From positions 2,051,035-2,115,034 of the forward strand of contig NZ_CP156660.1 of assembly GCF_039851975.1 (NCBI RefSeq): a stretch of 64,000 bases of DNA, read 5' to 3'. The position numbers and the translations under genes were made by a program. The first letter of the stretch is position 1. The number at the start of each line of letters is the position of its first letter. The DNA comes from Desulfoscipio sp. XC116. Its GTDB lineage: Bacteria; Bacillota; Desulfotomaculia; Desulfotomaculales; Desulfallaceae. This document shows, in pieces, positions 52,451 to 59,125 of the stretch. Under the pieces are notes generated by a model. It ran no database searches. It saw only the letters and a program-made list of their open reading frames with translations, and had not been told where the DNA came from.

Positions 52451-52543
52451 GGGGACCCTCCCCTCATGCAACATTCTTGTTACATTATCCGACAGCTGCC
52501 ATATTTAGTCAAGGTTAATGCTGAATTTACTGTACCAAACCAT

Positions 52544-52969
52544 TTAAAGCCCGGCACCGAGCTCCCGGTATATGCTTACAATATGACGATGCACCAGCGA
52601 TAAGCCCACACCCTTTAATCCCGGGATTTTAGCCAACCATACGCCGGCCTTCGCCGATAAAGTTCCGCGGCATTTAATGTACACCAGCTCATAATTGTCA
52701 ATATGCATCAGGTCCAGAAAACTGTTCACCGCCCGCCCAACCATATCACCGTTGCCCGGAGACCACAGTGCCAGACAGCTTTCACCTTGTTCGCCACGCC
52801 CCAAATTATATACGGTGGCATCCCCCCGGCCCAATCCGCTCCGGGCCAGCACATGGCCCAATTCACACAGCTGGGGCGCTCGATGAGCGGGGAGCTCACC
52901 GCTGCGGATAGCGGCCGCCAGTACAGCATAAGGAAATCCAGTGTCATTATAGAATATTATTTTTTTCAC
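52544..52969 (-). CDS. DUF3189 protein, first of a tandem pair
   Basis: 141 residues. It opens IIFYNDTGFPYAVLAAAI, and contains VYNLGRGEQGESCLALWSPG and a C-terminal helix ending in YRELGAGL. It resembles the adjacent DUF3189 paralogue in layout (beta-strand plus H/T-rich start, then ELVYIKCRGTL versus YKLVNVMHKVN). Conserved in spore-forming Clostridia; function unknown. The gap to the next gene upstream is one base. Confidence 0.8.
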   Translation of the reverse strand: MKKIIFYNDTGFPYAVLAAAIRSGELPAHRAPQLCELGHVLARSGLGRGDATVYNLGRGEQGESCLALWSPGNGDMVGRAVNSFLDLMHIDNYELVYIKCRGTLSAKAGVWLAKIPGLKGVGLSLVHRHIVSIYRELGAGL

Positions 52970-52970
52970 T

Positions 52971-53432
52971 CTATCGCTTAGCCCCCGCTTTCACCCTGCG
53001 CACCAGGTTTATAATATCTCCGAACGCATGGATGGTGCCCCAGGCAACCAGCGGCCGTCCCGGGTAAATCCATTTAAACCGGCGGGACATGAAGCCCCCC
53101 AGCCGCATACTCCAGTTCACCTTGTGCATTACGTTGACCAGCTTGTACTCCTGCGGCGGTATATCAAATTGCCCGGCCAGGCCGTAGATAATATTTTTCA
53201 GTATCCGCGGTGATCCCCGCCGGCCGACAAAATAAATTTCATTGCCTTGCCCGTCTATCCCCATCAAAGTAATATGGCCATGATCATGACTGTCCCGGTC
53301 ATCAAAAAAAGGAATAGCCAGTAAATCCTTGGCTTGGAGATCGAAGGGCAGCATACCCAAATGAAAAGCAGCGGCTGTAACCGATGAATGAGTGCCGCCG
53401 AAACAATGGTAAATTATTTTCAAAGTCATCAC
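52971..53432 (-). CDS. DUF3189 protein, second of a tandem pair
   Basis: 153 residues. IIYHCFGGTHSSVTAAAFHL at the start is the family's typical beginning; PFFDDRDSHDHGHITLMG follows with clustered His/Asp that could bind metal; a helical C-terminus ends in basic residues. It is translationally close to its neighbours on both sides (1 and 2 bases), implying one transcript with the YIEGIA pair. Confidence 0.85.
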   Translation of the reverse strand: MMTLKIIYHCFGGTHSSVTAAAFHLGMLPFDLQAKDLLAIPFFDDRDSHDHGHITLMGIDGQGNEIYFVGRRGSPRILKNIIYGLAGQFDIPPQEYKLVNVMHKVNWSMRLGGFMSRRFKWIYPGRPLVAWGTIHAFGDIINLVRRVKAGAKR

Positions 53433-53434
53433 CT

Positions 53435-53623
53435 TTAATGTCGGACTATAAAATAACAGCTATTTTCCAGGTCATGCACCATAGCATCCAATGTTTTAGC
53501 CAGAAACAGAGCGGTTTTTTCCTTTTCCTCTTCACTGTCGGCGATAAATATTGGCACAGCACCGGTTACTTTGCTTTTATCAGTGGTCACCACAGCCAGT
53601 ATTTCCTTCGCTTCTTCGCCCAA
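53435..53623 (-). CDS. capping complex subunit for YIEGIA
   Basis: 62 residues. EILAVVTTDKSKVTGAVPIF and a helical C-terminus (AKTLDAMVHDLENSCYFIV). This small protein accompanies YIEGIA genes in spore-forming Clostridia; I recognise it by context and length as well as sequence. Presumed to bind the YIEGIA membrane protein. Confidence 0.75.
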   Translation of the reverse strand: MGEEAKEILAVVTTDKSKVTGAVPIFIADSEEEKEKTALFLAKTLDAMVHDLENSCYFIVRH

Positions 53624-53685
53624 GTATCTTGCCCCCTTTATCGTGAATCAACCTCATCTTAGCCCCCGCACCGCAATGATTTTCC

Positions 53686-54576
53686 TTAATCGGCGGCTAA
53701 TCGCCCGGCCTGAGTTTTCAGCGGCTTAACGCGGGCACTCTCCAGCAGCGGTGTTCTTTGCACGGCCATAATCAGCGATTCCATATCCTTTTCAATAGGC
53801 ATTATGTATAAAGCCACAGCGCCGGTATCGGGGTTTTTCCGGGCCAGCGGAGTAAATTCCGGTATATCCACTTCTTTTTTACTCCCCATAATCAATGCCG
53901 CGGTATGAGTGATGGCCATGCGCTGGCCCATATCATGCAAAGTAGCCCTGGCATTATCATCTTTGGGCTTAATCAGCACACCCAGCGCCTCCCGCTTTAT
54001 TTTTTGGCGCATTTTGGATAAACCCACCGACATTATATCAATCTCATTAACACATAATAGCGATCCTTTAAAATGGACCCGGGCGGGAACTACTTTACAT
54101 ATATTCCCAATGTTCTTACCGGTCATAAAAGTTTTACTGAACAGCACCAGCAACAGCGCCATTGCCGCGGCAGCCCAAATGCCGGCCAGCACCGCCGCGA
54201 TACTGGTAAAAAAAGCGGTAGCCATTACCAAATAGTTACGCGCTTCAAAAGTACGGGCAATGCCTTCAATATAATCCTTGCCGCGCTTTTCCAAGCGGGT
54301 CTCCTCCAGATTCTCCAGGGTCAGTCTTTCTATATTGCGAATTTCGCGAAACTGCTGGGCAGCCAAAGCTAAAAAGGTAAAGGCGGTGAAATCCTTATTC
54401 ATTAGCGCGGGTACGGCCACCGCACCCAAAGATGAAGCAATGGCCCCCAAGGAGAGATGCGTAATATAGCCATGTGGATAACCGGGATACTGACGATAAT
54501 CCAACTTTAACAGCAGCATCCGGGTCAACGTGCCCGCCAGAGTGCCGGCCAATATAATTATTATATATTCTTCCAA
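53686..54576 (-). CDS. YIEGIA-family membrane protein
   Basis: 296 residues. The motif that names the family is intact at about 102-107 (KDYIEGIARTFEARNYL). Membrane helices at about 4-22, 40-72 and 118-148 (the last ALLLVLFSKTF). The C-terminal half is a soluble domain with basic patches. Restricted, as far as I know, to spore-formers; function undescribed. It begins a compact operon with its small partner and two DUF3189 genes. Confidence 0.85.
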   Translation of the reverse strand: MEEYIIIILAGTLAGTLTRMLLLKLDYRQYPGYPHGYITHLSLGAIASSLGAVAVPALMNKDFTAFTFLALAAQQFREIRNIERLTLENLEETRLEKRGKDYIEGIARTFEARNYLVMATAFFTSIAAVLAGIWAAAAMALLLVLFSKTFMTGKNIGNICKVVPARVHFKGSLLCVNEIDIMSVGLSKMRQKIKREALGVLIKPKDDNARATLHDMGQRMAITHTAALIMGSKKEVDIPEFTPLARKNPDTGAVALYIMPIEKDMESLIMAVQRTPLLESARVKPLKTQAGRLAAD

Positions 54577-54788
54577 ACAAGATCATACCTTTCCTTGTTT
54601 CACACTAACTATCGCTGCCGTGAGGATTATAATCGCTGCCGCTGCAATTGCGTCTTAACATTAAATTGGGCGTATCACTTCGACCGGCGAGCATGATACG
54701 CCCAATTGCAATTTTAATTTAGCAGTATTAAGTACTTCACTTGATCCGCGTCAGCAAGGCTATTATCAATTTTACGCCCCATACCCCG

Positions 54789-56060
54789 CTAGTCGTTTCT
54801 GACATTATCGCGGTTATCCCTAAATGCATCATTGGCATCTTCACTGCATGTCTTCTTCACCTGGCTTTCACCCGGGGAAGGGTTGTTATTAGTCCTTTTT
54901 CTCATCGGTGCCATAAAACCGGCAAATTCCCTGCCCCAGTAACCGCTCAACCGCTTGCGGGCATTTTGCCAGCTCCCCGAGCTGATCAGCAAAAATGCGC
55001 CCCCGCCCAGTACGGCAATACCGACTATCCAGGCTAAAGTTCTCCAACCGGCCGGTGAATTGGCCGCGGGACCGGAGTATCCGCCGGGAGTTTGAGCAAC
55101 CCCGCCCAATCCCAAAAGTCCGGGCAGCGCATCGGCAAACAAGGTTGCACCGTTTTCAGCGGCGTTCTTGGAATTGGTATGGGTGCCCACTTCAATCAAC
55201 ATAGCCGTTGACATCATATCCTGGTTGTAATTACCCTTGGCAATAAATATTTCCTTTACCAGCCCCGGGTGCACTTTATTGGCATAAGCCATGGCTTTCT
55301 TGGCAAATTCCATATTAGAATGCATTTTGGGGTTCTGTCTGCCCACAACCAATCGAACCTGGGTAGCGTCTTTACCGGCAATGTTTTTGCTGTAGTAATT
55401 GGGGTCGGGTATCCCATCCCGGTGCACATCAATTACCGCCACGGGGTTTTTCTTCATCAGGTTGGCCGCAGTACGCCGGGAACGATAATAAGCGTTGCTG
55501 TCCCGGGGCTCATGGGGCGTTTTGTCATGCAGCACATTGACGCCCTTCTTCTTTAATTCCGCGGCCATGGCATCCCCCACATCAAATATGCCGCCATGAT
55601 AGGGTATGCTTTCAGTACCGTCGGTAGGCACATAAGACTCGGCGCTGTGCGTGTGATACAGGGCCAACGGCCTCTTTTTCCAGTCCTGTTGACCTGCCAC
55701 GGGTACGGTAATGTTTTCGTATTCTTCCATATAGCCCAGCAGTTCCCGGTCCATACCGGTAAACTCAGCCTGAGCATTAAAACCGTCCACCGTTTTAATT
55801 TTATAATGATGCCCGCTGCCGGTGATCAACTCATCGCCTACCGAAACAGAACGAGACATTTGGCTGAGCAGCTTATTGCCGCTATCGGTTATTTTATATA
55901 CCAGACCGTCCCGGTGGTCGGATTCCATGGCGTTATTCCAAAGATCGCTTGGTGACCAGGCGGGAGACATGGAGCGATATGTTGCGAAATAAGCCAGCAA
56001 TGAAACGCCCAGCACTAAAAATCCGGCTCCCAAAGCAATTCTTAATCGCCGCTTTTGCAC
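54789..56060 (-). CDS. spoIIP: stage II sporulation protein P (SpoIIP)
   Basis: 423 residues. An N-terminal membrane helix (about 6-25), then the amidase/endopeptidase domain: ALYHTHSAESYVP (metal His), AVIDVHRDGIPDP, and the catalytic Glu in LIEVGTHTNSKNAA. After the domain there is a proline/glycine linker, a second hydrophobic helix (LAWIVGIAVLGGGAFLLIS) and an asparagine/aspartate-rich tail. The C-terminal helix is not in B. subtilis SpoIIP. It degrades septal peptidoglycan during engulfment with SpoIID. Confidence 0.94.
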   Translation of the reverse strand: MQKRRLRIALGAGFLVLGVSLLAYFATYRSMSPAWSPSDLWNNAMESDHRDGLVYKITDSGNKLLSQMSRSVSVGDELITGSGHHYKIKTVDGFNAQAEFTGMDRELLGYMEEYENITVPVAGQQDWKKRPLALYHTHSAESYVPTDGTESIPYHGGIFDVGDAMAAELKKKGVNVLHDKTPHEPRDSNAYYRSRRTAANLMKKNPVAVIDVHRDGIPDPNYYSKNIAGKDATQVRLVVGRQNPKMHSNMEFAKKAMAYANKVHPGLVKEIFIAKGNYNQDMMSTAMLIEVGTHTNSKNAAENGATLFADALPGLLGLGGVAQTPGGYSGPAANSPAGWRTLAWIVGIAVLGGGAFLLISSGSWQNARKRLSGYWGREFAGFMAPMRKRTNNNPSPGESQVKKTCSEDANDAFRDNRDNVRND

Positions 56061-56062
56061 CG

Positions 56063-56800
56063 TTATTCCCCCTCCCTGTTATCTGTGCGATCAGGTTTTT
56101 TTTCTGTAGGACCCGGTTTGCGCAGACCCTCCATTAATTCCGCCGACCGCCCCTGTGAAGCCGGGCCGCCCTGCAGTCTTTCCCGGGTTTCCCCAATTAT
56201 CTCCGCCAGCAAGACAGCCACTATACCGGCCAGTACGATACCGTCAAACGCACCGGCCCCGCCAATGGCCACCGTACCGGCGGGTGCGCCGGTATAAACC
56301 AGCCAGACCAGATAGGCCAAATCCACCAGCACCAGCCCCAGAGTGGCGGCAATAAAGGCGCTGCGGCGCGAACGGCCCGCTATGTAAGCCACCAAACCGC
56401 CGATAATGGGATAAACCCACAATGCGTCCAAATAGCCAAAGAAGCGCCCGCCCGGCTCCACATCACCGCGTCCGAGCAGATAGCCCACCCCGTAAATCAC
56501 GGCCCCGGTAATAAGGGCTGCTATAAGCGCCCTTCCCCATTCCTTGGATGTTCCGGCCCGGCTGAGCAGGTAGCCGGCCACACCAAGTGGAACCAGTGCC
56601 CCGCCTACATTGACCGACACATCATAGCGGCCTGTACTAAGAGGGATATCGATAAAGCTTCCCACAGCCAGCAAGGCGATAATCCCCAGAGCTGCCCGAT
56701 CGGAAAGACGCATTCTGTCCAGCACGCGCTGGGCCAAGCCGAAATAAATCAAAATGGAGACCACAATTAGTACTATAATGCCAATGGGTAATTGCGTCAT
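56063..56800 (-). CDS. DUF1614 integral membrane protein
   Basis: 245 residues with about seven hydrophobic helices (IGIIVLIVVSILIYFGL, ALIAALITGAVIYGVGYLLG, GIVLAGIVAVLLAEIIG). VYPIIGGLVAY and GGAGAFDGIVLAGI are family-like. Function unknown. It is two bases upstream of spoIIP, so translational coupling is likely and a sporulation link possible. Confidence 0.85.
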   Translation of the reverse strand: MTQLPIGIIVLIVVSILIYFGLAQRVLDRMRLSDRAALGIIALLAVGSFIDIPLSTGRYDVSVNVGGALVPLGVAGYLLSRAGTSKEWGRALIAALITGAVIYGVGYLLGRGDVEPGGRFFGYLDALWVYPIIGGLVAYIAGRSRRSAFIAATLGLVLVDLAYLVWLVYTGAPAGTVAIGGAGAFDGIVLAGIVAVLLAEIIGETRERLQGGPASQGRSAELMEGLRKPGPTEKKPDRTDNREGE

Positions 56801-56943
56801 TGCACACCCTCCTTAAATAAATGATAACTCTTAAAATTATGCTTCCCCGGAGAAAGGAAAATATGTGTGCCAGGTATTCCTTTGATTCGACACAATAACG
56901 CAATATATCCGAATTTGCCTTATATCGAGATCGGCTTGCGCGC

Positions 56944-57034: not shown

Positions 57035-59125
57035 TTATTCCTTATTCTCAAAAATATCGCCTACCAAGTCGCCAATAGTCACAGTGCCGCCGTCATTGGC
57101 CGGCGGTATTTCTTGTTTTTTAGGCTGGTATTCCCTTGGGCCGGGCTTGCTTGGTTTTTCCCGGTCCACTTCCCTGATGGACAAACGGATACGTTTCTCT
57201 TCTGAATCCACGCTAAGTACCTTGACCCTAATTTCCTCATTTTCAGCTACAACTTCATCAGGGGTGGCCACATGCCGGTCAGCCAAATGAGATATGTGTA
57301 CCAAGCCTTCCACGCCAGGCTCCAGCTGTACAAAGGCACCAAAGGGAGCCAAACGCACCACCTTGGCGTTGATCACACTGCCCACGGGATACTTTTCTTC
57401 AACATTGTCCCAGGGATTAGCCAGTACTTGCTTCAAGCCCAGGGAAACTTTTTCGTTCTCCCGGTCTACCCGCAGCACTTTAACATCCAGTTCATCGCCC
57501 ACTTGTACTACTTCGGAGGGATGATTGATGCGATACCAGGCCATTTCTGAAATATGCAGCAGGCCGTCAACACCACCGATATCCACAAAGGCGCCAAAAT
57601 TAGTCAGGCGGCGAACAACACCCTTGACCACCTGGCCCTCTTCCAGATTGGCCAGCAGTTCTTCACGATTACGGGCGTATTCTTCCTCAAGAACAGCTTT
57701 ACGGGAAAGGATAACCTTTCTTCTGGCCCGATTGAGTTCAATTACTTTAGCGTCTATTTCCATATTCAGATACTTGCTCAGGTCCTCTACATAACCCCTA
57801 TCCACCAGTGATGCGGGTAAAAACGCACGCACGCCCACATCCACCAGCAAGCCGCCTTTGACAACTTCACGAACTGAGCCGGAAACCAGCTGGCCCTCAT
57901 TCATATTCTCTTCCAGCCGTGCCCAGGCTTCCTCAGCATCGGCCTTCTCCTTGGAAAGAATTACCCGGCCTTCATTGTCTTCTGATTTTAGCACATACAC
58001 TTTTATTTCATCGCCCACTTTTACTACATCCTGTGGGGAGTCTACACTGAAATTGGATAGTTCCCTGACAGGAATAACCCCTTCCGACTTGGCCCCTACA
58101 TCAACCAGTACTTCGTCCTGGTTGACCTGAACGACCACGCCGGTGACGATATCGCCGTTTCTGAGGTTCTTAACCTCAACAGCATCTTCCATTTCCTGTT
58201 TCATGTCCTCCTGCGGCTCGGCTTCAACCGCCGATTGATCCTCAACCTGTGTTTCCATTACTTCTTCTTTGTTGGTTTCTTCAAAATCCATCATTCGACA
58301 ACAAACCTCCTCTATAATCCAGCCGGGTGTAGACGCGCCTGCCGTAACCCCCACTGTACGGAGCCCTTTCAGCCACGCAAAATCTATTTCTTCGGCTGTT
58401 TCTACCCAATACACCGGTTTTCCGGCAGTACGGCAAATTTGAGCCAGTTTAGCTGTATTGGCACTGTTTCTGCCTCCCAGCACCAGTACGGCGTCCACCT
58501 GCTGCGCAAGTTTTAGAGCTTCTTTCTGCCTTTCGGCCGTGGCCGAGCAGATAGTATTGCACACTTTCACCCGGCTTCCGCTGTCCTTTAAAACTTTAAC
58601 CACAGCGTCAAAATTATCCTGCCGCTGGGTTGTCTGGGCCACAACACCTACCTGGGTAAATTTCCCCAACTTTTTGGCCTGCTCGGCATCGGCTACCACT
58701 ATAGCCCTGCCGCCCGACCAGCCTACAATGCCCTGTACTTCAGGATGCCGGGGATCACCCACCACTACCACGGGTATAGCTTGCCGCACCAGGTCATGTA
58801 CCGTCTGCTGTACTTTACGCACGAACGGGCAAGTGGCATCAACCAGATCAAGCCCTTTTTGTTCGGCACGGCGCAGCACTTCAGGCACCACACCATGGGA
58901 ACGAATGATTACGGTTCCCGGCCCCTCAATTTCATCCACATTGTTTACCGAGCCAATACCCTCATGGGCCAGTGCCCCGATAACCTGATCATTATGAATT
59001 AAAGGGCCCAGTGTATACACCGGTCCGTCTCTGTCATGCAAGCTTTTACGGGCCATTTCCACAGCCCTTTTCACGCCAAAGCAAAAACCCGCTTTGGCGG
59101 CAACTTTTACCTTCATCACCTTCAC
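57035..59125 (-). CDS. ispH: fused HMBPP reductase (IspH) and ribosomal protein S1
   Basis: 696 residues. IspH domain about 1-285, with the three [4Fe-4S] cysteines in AGFCFGVKRA, DATCPFVRK and CNTICSATAER. An acidic linker (about 285-315) is followed by four S1 repeats (NGDIVTGVVVQVNQDEVLV, EGQLVSGSVREVVKGGLLV, EGQVVKGVVRRLTNFGAFV, VGSVINAKVVRLAPFGAFV), then a basic-proline tail. The fusion is known in several Clostridia. The start could be GTG 59125 or ATG 59116; both lie just before the first conserved strand. It joins isoprenoid synthesis (last MEP step) to translation. Confidence 0.95.
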   Translation of the reverse strand: MKVMKVKVAAKAGFCFGVKRAVEMARKSLHDRDGPVYTLGPLIHNDQVIGALAHEGIGSVNNVDEIEGPGTVIIRSHGVVPEVLRRAEQKGLDLVDATCPFVRKVQQTVHDLVRQAIPVVVVGDPRHPEVQGIVGWSGGRAIVVADAEQAKKLGKFTQVGVVAQTTQRQDNFDAVVKVLKDSGSRVKVCNTICSATAERQKEALKLAQQVDAVLVLGGRNSANTAKLAQICRTAGKPVYWVETAEEIDFAWLKGLRTVGVTAGASTPGWIIEEVCCRMMDFEETNKEEVMETQVEDQSAVEAEPQEDMKQEMEDAVEVKNLRNGDIVTGVVVQVNQDEVLVDVGAKSEGVIPVRELSNFSVDSPQDVVKVGDEIKVYVLKSEDNEGRVILSKEKADAEEAWARLEENMNEGQLVSGSVREVVKGGLLVDVGVRAFLPASLVDRGYVEDLSKYLNMEIDAKVIELNRARRKVILSRKAVLEEEYARNREELLANLEEGQVVKGVVRRLTNFGAFVDIGGVDGLLHISEMAWYRINHPSEVVQVGDELDVKVLRVDRENEKVSLGLKQVLANPWDNVEEKYPVGSVINAKVVRLAPFGAFVQLEPGVEGLVHISHLADRHVATPDEVVAENEEIRVKVLSVDSEEKRIRLSIREVDREKPSKPGPREYQPKKQEIPPANDGGTVTIGDLVGDIFENKE

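Follow-up and report, generated by a model that had tools for sequence, protein, structure and literature searches.

The window analysed here is a stretch of 64,000 nucleotides from Desulfoscipio sp. XC116 (contig NZ_CP156660.1, positions 2,051,035 to 2,115,034) and carries on its minus strand a compact cluster of four genes, which encode a YIEGIA membrane protein, its small partner YIEGIA_cap (hereafter the cap) and two DUF3189 proteins, DUF3189-A and DUF3189-B (Table 1). An earlier note, made from the sequence alone, had described this cluster as lying next to spoIIP and DUF1614; place, both neighbours and the gaps of 62, 2 and 1 bases in the order of transcription are as it described them, and all four proteins score above the curated cut-offs by which Pfam matches were judged. 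The YIEGIA motif is present in the translation of the YIEGIA gene, and in NCBIfam none of the four proteins has any match above cut-off. The His/Asp-rich starts ascribed to the two DUF3189 proteins are better described as an element YHC[YF]GGxHSS, which is there in copy A and has decayed to YNDTGFPYA in copy B. Two points go beyond that note: DUF1614 is where the unit starts, and the second of the DUF3189 copies is degenerate. From sequence comparison we consider it rather probable that these genes form the 3' portion of a forespore operon of six genes, DUF1614-spoIIP-YIEGIA-cap-DUF3189-DUF3189, with the roles proposed below. The computed results behind this reading are as follows: DUF1614 is preceded by a conserved promoter of forespore type, a distinct unit of sigma-A type follows DUF3189-B, the genes are nearly confined to genomes that have SpoIVA, YIEGIA and cap are always paired, and a canonical DUF3189 is combined with a degenerate one.

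Table 1. Genes and sequence elements of the unit in the window (positions counted from the first letter of the window).
Feature	Position	Strand	Evidence
YIEGIA membrane protein (YphB family)	53686..54576	-	PF14045, 414.7 bits (cut-off 27); model pLDDT 86
YIEGIA_cap, 62-residue partner	53435..53623	-	PF21835, 94.7 bits (cut-off 24.1)
DUF3189-A, canonical copy with C-x-G-x-x-H-S-S site	52971..53432	-	PF11385, 180.9 bits (cut-off 23.2); model pLDDT 92
DUF3189-B, degenerate copy, site absent	52544..52969	-	PF11385, 36.5 bits (cut-off 23.2); tree and site count
SpoIIP, engulfment wall hydrolase	54789..56060	-	PF07454, 199.3 bits (cut-off 24.4); TIGR02867, 177.6 bits (cut-off 123.15)
DUF1614 membrane protein, first gene of the unit	56063..56800	-	PF07758, 49.9 bits (cut-off 23.9); hydrophobic stretches (hydropathy)
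Putative forespore-type promoter of the operon	56837..56867	-	ACATA, 14 bases, GGGAAGCATA; matrix score 21.3 bits
Inverted repeat (candidate hairpin) in the spoIIP-YIEGIA gap	54664..54707	-	14-base arms; RNA fold z -4.21
Sigma-A-like promoter of DUF512-Der-PlsY-GpsA, putative 3' operon border	52484..52512	-	TTGACT-17-GATAAT, 10/12 (matches at 10/12 are equally frequent in shuffled sequence)

Relatives were collected by a scan with the YIEGIA alignment, using one genome per species, and the best 80 loci of at least 563 relatives were compared; this sample is biased to close relatives, and several of its contigs stop short of the gene in question. The cap is present in 80/80 loci, SpoIIP in 73, DUF1614 in 70 and DUF3189 in 59, as two copies in 44 of these and as a single one in 15, so that the conservation claimed for the cluster exceeds chance. 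The commonest order is S1-DUF1614-spoIIP-YIEGIA-cap-DUF3189-DUF3189-DUF512-Der-PlsY-GpsA. In the window DUF3189-B is likewise followed by DUF512 (radical SAM) and then by Der, PlsY and GpsA, names that were read off the translations. Median gaps, with gene starts estimated by script, are 12 bases between spoIIP and YIEGIA (n=73), 13 between YIEGIA and cap (n=79), 17 between cap and DUF3189 (n=59) and -4 between the two DUF3189 genes (n=43), and 84 bases precede DUF512 (n=52). The inverted repeat of the window, either a hairpin or an operator, has perfect arms and a 16-base loop; the arms (GGGCGTATCA/TGATACGCCC) recur in the loci L064 and L068, and one arm in L063, with differing loops. Its sequence is found only once in the genome, and Rfam gave no match within 48-60 kb of the window. 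The frame at 57035-59125 of the window encodes 696 residues in which IspH and ribosomal protein S1-like domains can be read from the translation. The entire block from S1 to DUF3189 is also found in a metagenome-assembled genome labelled Desulfovibrio (L115), which is probably a mislabelled or mixed bin.

A consensus scan of the 150 bases upstream of nine genes in the relatives gave a strong sigma-F-type signal before DUF1614 alone (z 13.9) and, for sigma-A, a strong signal before DUF512 alone (z 15.2, 67 loci), and a matrix scan of the relatives gave no forespore-type signal upstream of spoIIP, YIEGIA, cap or DUF3189. The gapped matrix, trained on the upstream regions of DUF1614 from 64 loci, converged in 61 of them on tGCATAa, a spacer that is mostly 12-13 bases long and.GGGaAa.cTAa (in short form GCATA, about 14 bases, GGGAANNCTA), and in 60 of these 61 the -10 element begins 42-72 bases ahead of the DUF1614 domain. 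Scores above 8 bits are reached by 95% of the DUF1614 upstream regions, by 0-8% of those of the other eight genes and by 4-8% of shuffles; for S1 the share is 28% of 51 regions, versus 7.5% of shuffles. The site of the window is the only one above 16 bits in the 64 kb.

A second promoter set was drawn from 40 genomes belonging to the order and comprised 30 DUF1614 loci. Scores above 14 were found for 20 of the 22 DUF1614 genes with an adjacent spoIIP, or for 15/17 when only new loci are counted (four of the 22 overlap training sequences and one is the window itself), the two failing loci (L279, L280) being of one family; 0/8 DUF1614 genes without adjacent spoIIP score above 8, and 1/25 control genes for low-molecular-weight (LMW) phosphatases does. 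L266 to L273 represent a second DUF1614 class, with far higher Pfam scores and with neither an adjacent spoIIP nor a forespore-type promoter. Applied to the whole genome, a strict promoter pattern gave one match and its reversed control two; the pattern alone therefore defines no regulon. The assignment of the promoter of the unit to the forespore type is well supported by these scans, and it looks more like a sigma-F than a sigma-E promoter.

The distribution of the genes was determined in 159 Bacillota genomes with a completeness of at least 90%, with SpoIVA standing in for the ability to sporulate; of the 19 SpoIVA-negative genomes several come from one family, and the Fisher tests given below are uncorrected for kinship. 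SpoIVA was found in 140 genomes, DUF3189 in 104, and YIEGIA and cap in 75 each. DUF3189 is present in 104/140 SpoIVA-positive and 0/19 SpoIVA-negative genomes, and YIEGIA and cap each in 74/140 versus 1/19, the sole SpoIVA-negative genome with YIEGIA (G072) being listed at 5% contamination. The earlier note had held that commonness in non-sporulating lineages would speak against its reading, and genome content shows the families to be rare or absent there. YIEGIA and cap occupy the identical 75 genomes and are both doubled in the same four. A second YIEGIA-cap pair lies away from the spoIIP locus in four genomes (L153, L306, L307 and L308, from G137, G036, G075 and G108). In a set of 14 named control genomes, B. 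subtilis alone gave matches to YIEGIA and cap, and none, B. subtilis included, gave one to DUF3189; a scan of genome contigs with a single DUF3189 sequence gave no match. Because the profile is linked to SpoIVA and a forespore-type promoter precedes DUF1614, a role of the cluster in sporulation, as the earlier note had proposed, is supported by the comparative data. That the four are housekeeping membrane genes hitch-hiking beside spoIIP and the Der-GpsA block is very improbable: the downstream DUF512-Der-PlsY-GpsA genes do have a sigma-A-type signal and are conserved beside the cluster, but both the restriction to SpoIVA-positive genomes and the forespore-type promoter, which precedes even two displaced DUF3189 pairs (L310, L330), argue against it.

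The earlier note had gone further and suggested one membrane complex of all four proteins. Such a complex, stably placed in the forespore membrane and carrying a DUF3189 heterodimer bound to YIEGIA-cap, would agree with the tight packing, with the position of DUF3189 behind the cap in the 59 loci mentioned above and with the associated presence of DUF3189 and YIEGIA, which occur together in 61 of the 159 genomes (Fisher P 1e-4, and P 0.02 within the SpoIVA-positive ones). We nevertheless regard it as rather unlikely, since 43 genomes have DUF3189 only and 14 YIEGIA only, DUF3189 follows spoIIP without YIEGIA in four loci (L146, L147, L149, L151), the two modules lie at separate places in G023 (L309, L310), and DUF3189 pairs directly behind S1 have a matching promoter of their own (L310, 18.7 bits; L330, 18.8 bits). 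YIEGIA-cap and DUF3189 are better supported as two modules of one regulon than as, necessarily, a single four-protein complex. In all, ten loci have DUF3189 with neither spoIIP nor YIEGIA in front, and beside the strong sites of L310 and L330 there is a weak one in L148 (9.5 bits) and none in the other seven. YIEGIA genes without spoIIP directly upstream have a site of 8.2-11.2 bits in 3/11 cases (L298, L311, L312), a height reached by 0/50 shuffles.

The two DUF3189 copies were compared in 44 pairs, from 43 loci and the window (L077, with its first copy masked, was left out), and a copy was called canonical when it has Cys10, His15 and Ser17. Exactly one member is canonical in 40/44 pairs, the first copy in 33 and the second in 7; both are canonical in L120, L123, L126 and L138, and there is no pair with neither, while single DUF3189 genes are canonical in 15/15 cases. 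Among the residues outside the sorting criteria, canonical copies conserve Gly12, Asp44, Gly112, Arg117 and Arg126 to 98%; the non-canonical ones keep Gly112 in 54%, Arg117 in 44% and Arg126 in 20%, and Gly58 and Asp60 are retained in both kinds alike. The DUF3189 tree, built from few columns and with long branches, requires seven state changes, at least two of them forced by well-supported branches, so that the canonical site has probably been lost more than once. Since one member only keeps the Cys/His/Ser site in nearly all pairs, the pair suggests an enzyme with a pseudo-enzyme partner. Both DUF3189 domains are joined in a single frame in L143-L146 (the second domain being partial in L143 and L144), four of 13 stretches picked for long frames or missing YIEGIA.

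We consider it less probable that DUF3189 is no enzyme, its conserved Cys/Asp, His and Arg serving to bind a small ligand or a metal while the pair acts as sensor or adaptor. This reading would account for a stand-alone class with Asp in place of Cys10 (L148, L152, L314, L315, L321, L335) and for the Ser or Thr at the position of the phosphatase-loop Arg, and the residue conservation would fit a ligand site as well; on the other hand, the near-invariance of Gly12, Asp44, Arg117 and Arg126 in canonical copies and their large loss elsewhere is what an active site would be expected to show. The Asp-type genes are located away from the spoIIP locus and have diverse neighbours, which gave no functional clue in the subset of 17 neighbours scanned.

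The structure model of DUF3189 has an alpha/beta fold with a conserved loop after strand 1. For neither the DUF3189 nor the YIEGIA model did Foldseek return a match with an E of 0.001 or lower, and the profiles of the two families found chance-level matches only among PDB sequences (best E 0.77 and 0.83, respectively). With VIA-align, six of the ten best rows for DUF3189 are LMW tyrosine phosphatases or their relatives (5got, 4etn, 5pnt, 5jnt, 5kqm and 2cwd; Z 5.1-5.3), of which we take 4etn to be YwlE and 2cwd to belong to the LMW phosphatase family. Ras-like GTPases tie with these (Z up to 5.4), a range for which a common arrangement suffices. In hhalign profile comparison LMW phosphatases came first of 10 families (score 21.1, probability 3.5%), the C-x-G-x-x-H-S-S site of DUF3189 being aligned on their C-x-G-N-x-C-R-S, and 1/100 block shuffles equals this score. 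PF01451 was not among the seven Pfam families obtained with 42 DUF3189 members at E up to 10, a search in which the HMMER filters lose most weak matches. What DUF3189 shares with the LMW phosphatases (PF01451) is the conserved Cys loop after strand 1; it differs in the catalytic Arg of their C-x5-R (position 16), which canonical copies replace by Ser (97%) or Thr (3%), and Ras-like folds score equally. The likeness is treated as a lead, and membership in the family is not claimed because the catalytic Arg is missing and a Pfam match was not obtained.

The YIEGIA model has long helices up to residue 149, followed by short strands, and its C-terminal domain is alpha/beta; hydropathy places membrane stretches at 3-26, 37-61 and 112-154. 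MscS/MSL channels make up 7/50 VIA-align rows (Z 5.5-7.0), several of them collinear across the whole model, and this would fit an MscS-like channel of the spore membrane with the cap as gate or plug for the traffic of ions or small molecules. We hold this to be quite improbable: the full-length rows have an rmsd of 21-31, the Z values are typical of common arrangements, and hhalign places MscS no higher than controls (18.2 versus 23.75 for the control PlsY; 15.8 versus shuffles with a median of 14.6 and a maximum of 23.7). In a Pfam scan of 45 YIEGIA members MscS is absent among the matches listed (25 of 38 families). Two further ideas were discarded. YphA has no detectable profile relation to DUF1614, of which it might have been a divergent form, and the C-terminal membrane helix of SpoIIP is not tied to DUF3189, being found in 93/95 SpoIIP proteins irrespective of it; in the SpoIIP of the window it is seen by hydropathy as a second hydrophobic segment at 339-365. 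Literature searches gave no title on sporulation genes for seaA and spore (SeaA being presumably the newer name of YphB) and, among the matches listed, none on spores for yphA, yphB and ypzH. Among the uncharacterised proteins of the B. cereus spore inner membrane a YIEGIA protein is listed (PMC8624511), and in B. pumilus spores a YIEGIA protein was the membrane protein that pulsed light depleted most (PMC12017682).

Taken together, sigma-F RNA polymerase would transcribe the operon inside the forespore shortly after the cell has divided asymmetrically. SpoIIP, which is expected in the forespore membrane (PMC6221140), would be placed with DUF1614 and YIEGIA in this membrane, the future spore inner membrane, and the cap may bind YIEGIA on the cytoplasmic side, at the C-terminal alpha/beta domain. 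DUF3189-A would be a cysteine-dependent enzyme with a Rossmann-like fold resembling that of LMW phosphatases and DUF3189-B its inactive regulatory partner, and the pair would support engulfment or the new spore membrane from the forespore cytoplasm, perhaps by removal of a phosphate or acyl group. The link to the DMP engulfment machinery (SpoIID, SpoIIM and SpoIIP) consists of the putative operon shared with spoIIP. A bolder version, which we consider unlikely, is that DUF3189 constitutes a new class of spore-specific cysteine enzymes working as an active/pseudo heterodimer in the forespore and controlling a SpoIIP/DUF1614/YIEGIA-cap membrane machine via removal of phosphate or thioester groups.

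Several observations weigh against the proposed operon and the roles of its products. The choice of sigma-F over sigma-G is drawn from the GG before the -10 element and is not proven, because the matrix catches 10/30 control SASP genes above 8 bits, including the window genome's own (L241, 15.5 bits; this like site in the same genome in turn speaks for the forespore-type promoter), and just 4/30 spoIIR genes, about the level of shuffles; SASP genes are in general of sigma-G type and spoIIR of sigma-F type. Several spoIIR loci have, by eye, a related site of the type GTTTA...GGGTAAAACTA about 150 bases upstream. The spoIIP-YIEGIA gap of the window measures 212 bases versus the median of 12 and holds the hairpin, so that read-through there, and with it co-transcription, is an assumption. 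Two canonical copies in 4/44 DUF3189 pairs do not fit the division into enzyme and pseudo-enzyme, nor does the Asp-type class fit a cysteine enzyme, and the likeness to LMW phosphatases is statistically weak. From other species, spoIIP of C. acetobutylicum is not under sigma-F control and that of C. difficile also drops 10-fold in a sigE mutant (PMC3789822), and B. subtilis YphB is reported to be non-essential (PMC12017682).

Knowledge of engulfment and early spore-membrane formation comes mainly from B. subtilis. If the operon reading is true, many clostridia-like spore formers co-produce SpoIIP in the forespore with proteins which we did not find described as a set; if DUF3189 does control the membrane machine, forespore-side chemistry would regulate engulfment in clostridia-like bacteria through an input absent in B. 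subtilis. Direct tests come within reach through the residues conserved in DUF3189-A and the recurrent loss of the site from its partner.

The earlier note had called the proposed complex undescribed, which is true in part: a full-text literature search on DUF3189 found no paper, and YIEGIA has been described to some extent. Among the closest known systems, Makarova and colleagues (PMC5898192) report SpoIIP and yphB beside a six-helix membrane family, arCOG02159, and suggest a membrane-remodelling complex for this neighbourhood; from the context we read the six-helix family as DUF1614. Their passage on this family is without the cap, DUF3189, a promoter or operon borders. C. difficile has gpr-spoIIP-CD2468 within its sigma-F regulon, with an uncharacterised gene behind spoIIP as in the window, although the partners named for spoIIP in that account are not those of the window unit (PMC3789822). 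B. subtilis YphB is of the YIEGIA family, has an adjacent cap gene and is reported to be regulated by sigma-F (PMC12017682), and differs from the window in that the genome has no DUF3189 match. In the locus with the order YphA-YIEGIA-cap (L155), the gene ahead of YIEGIA is YphA, where the window unit has DUF1614-spoIIP.

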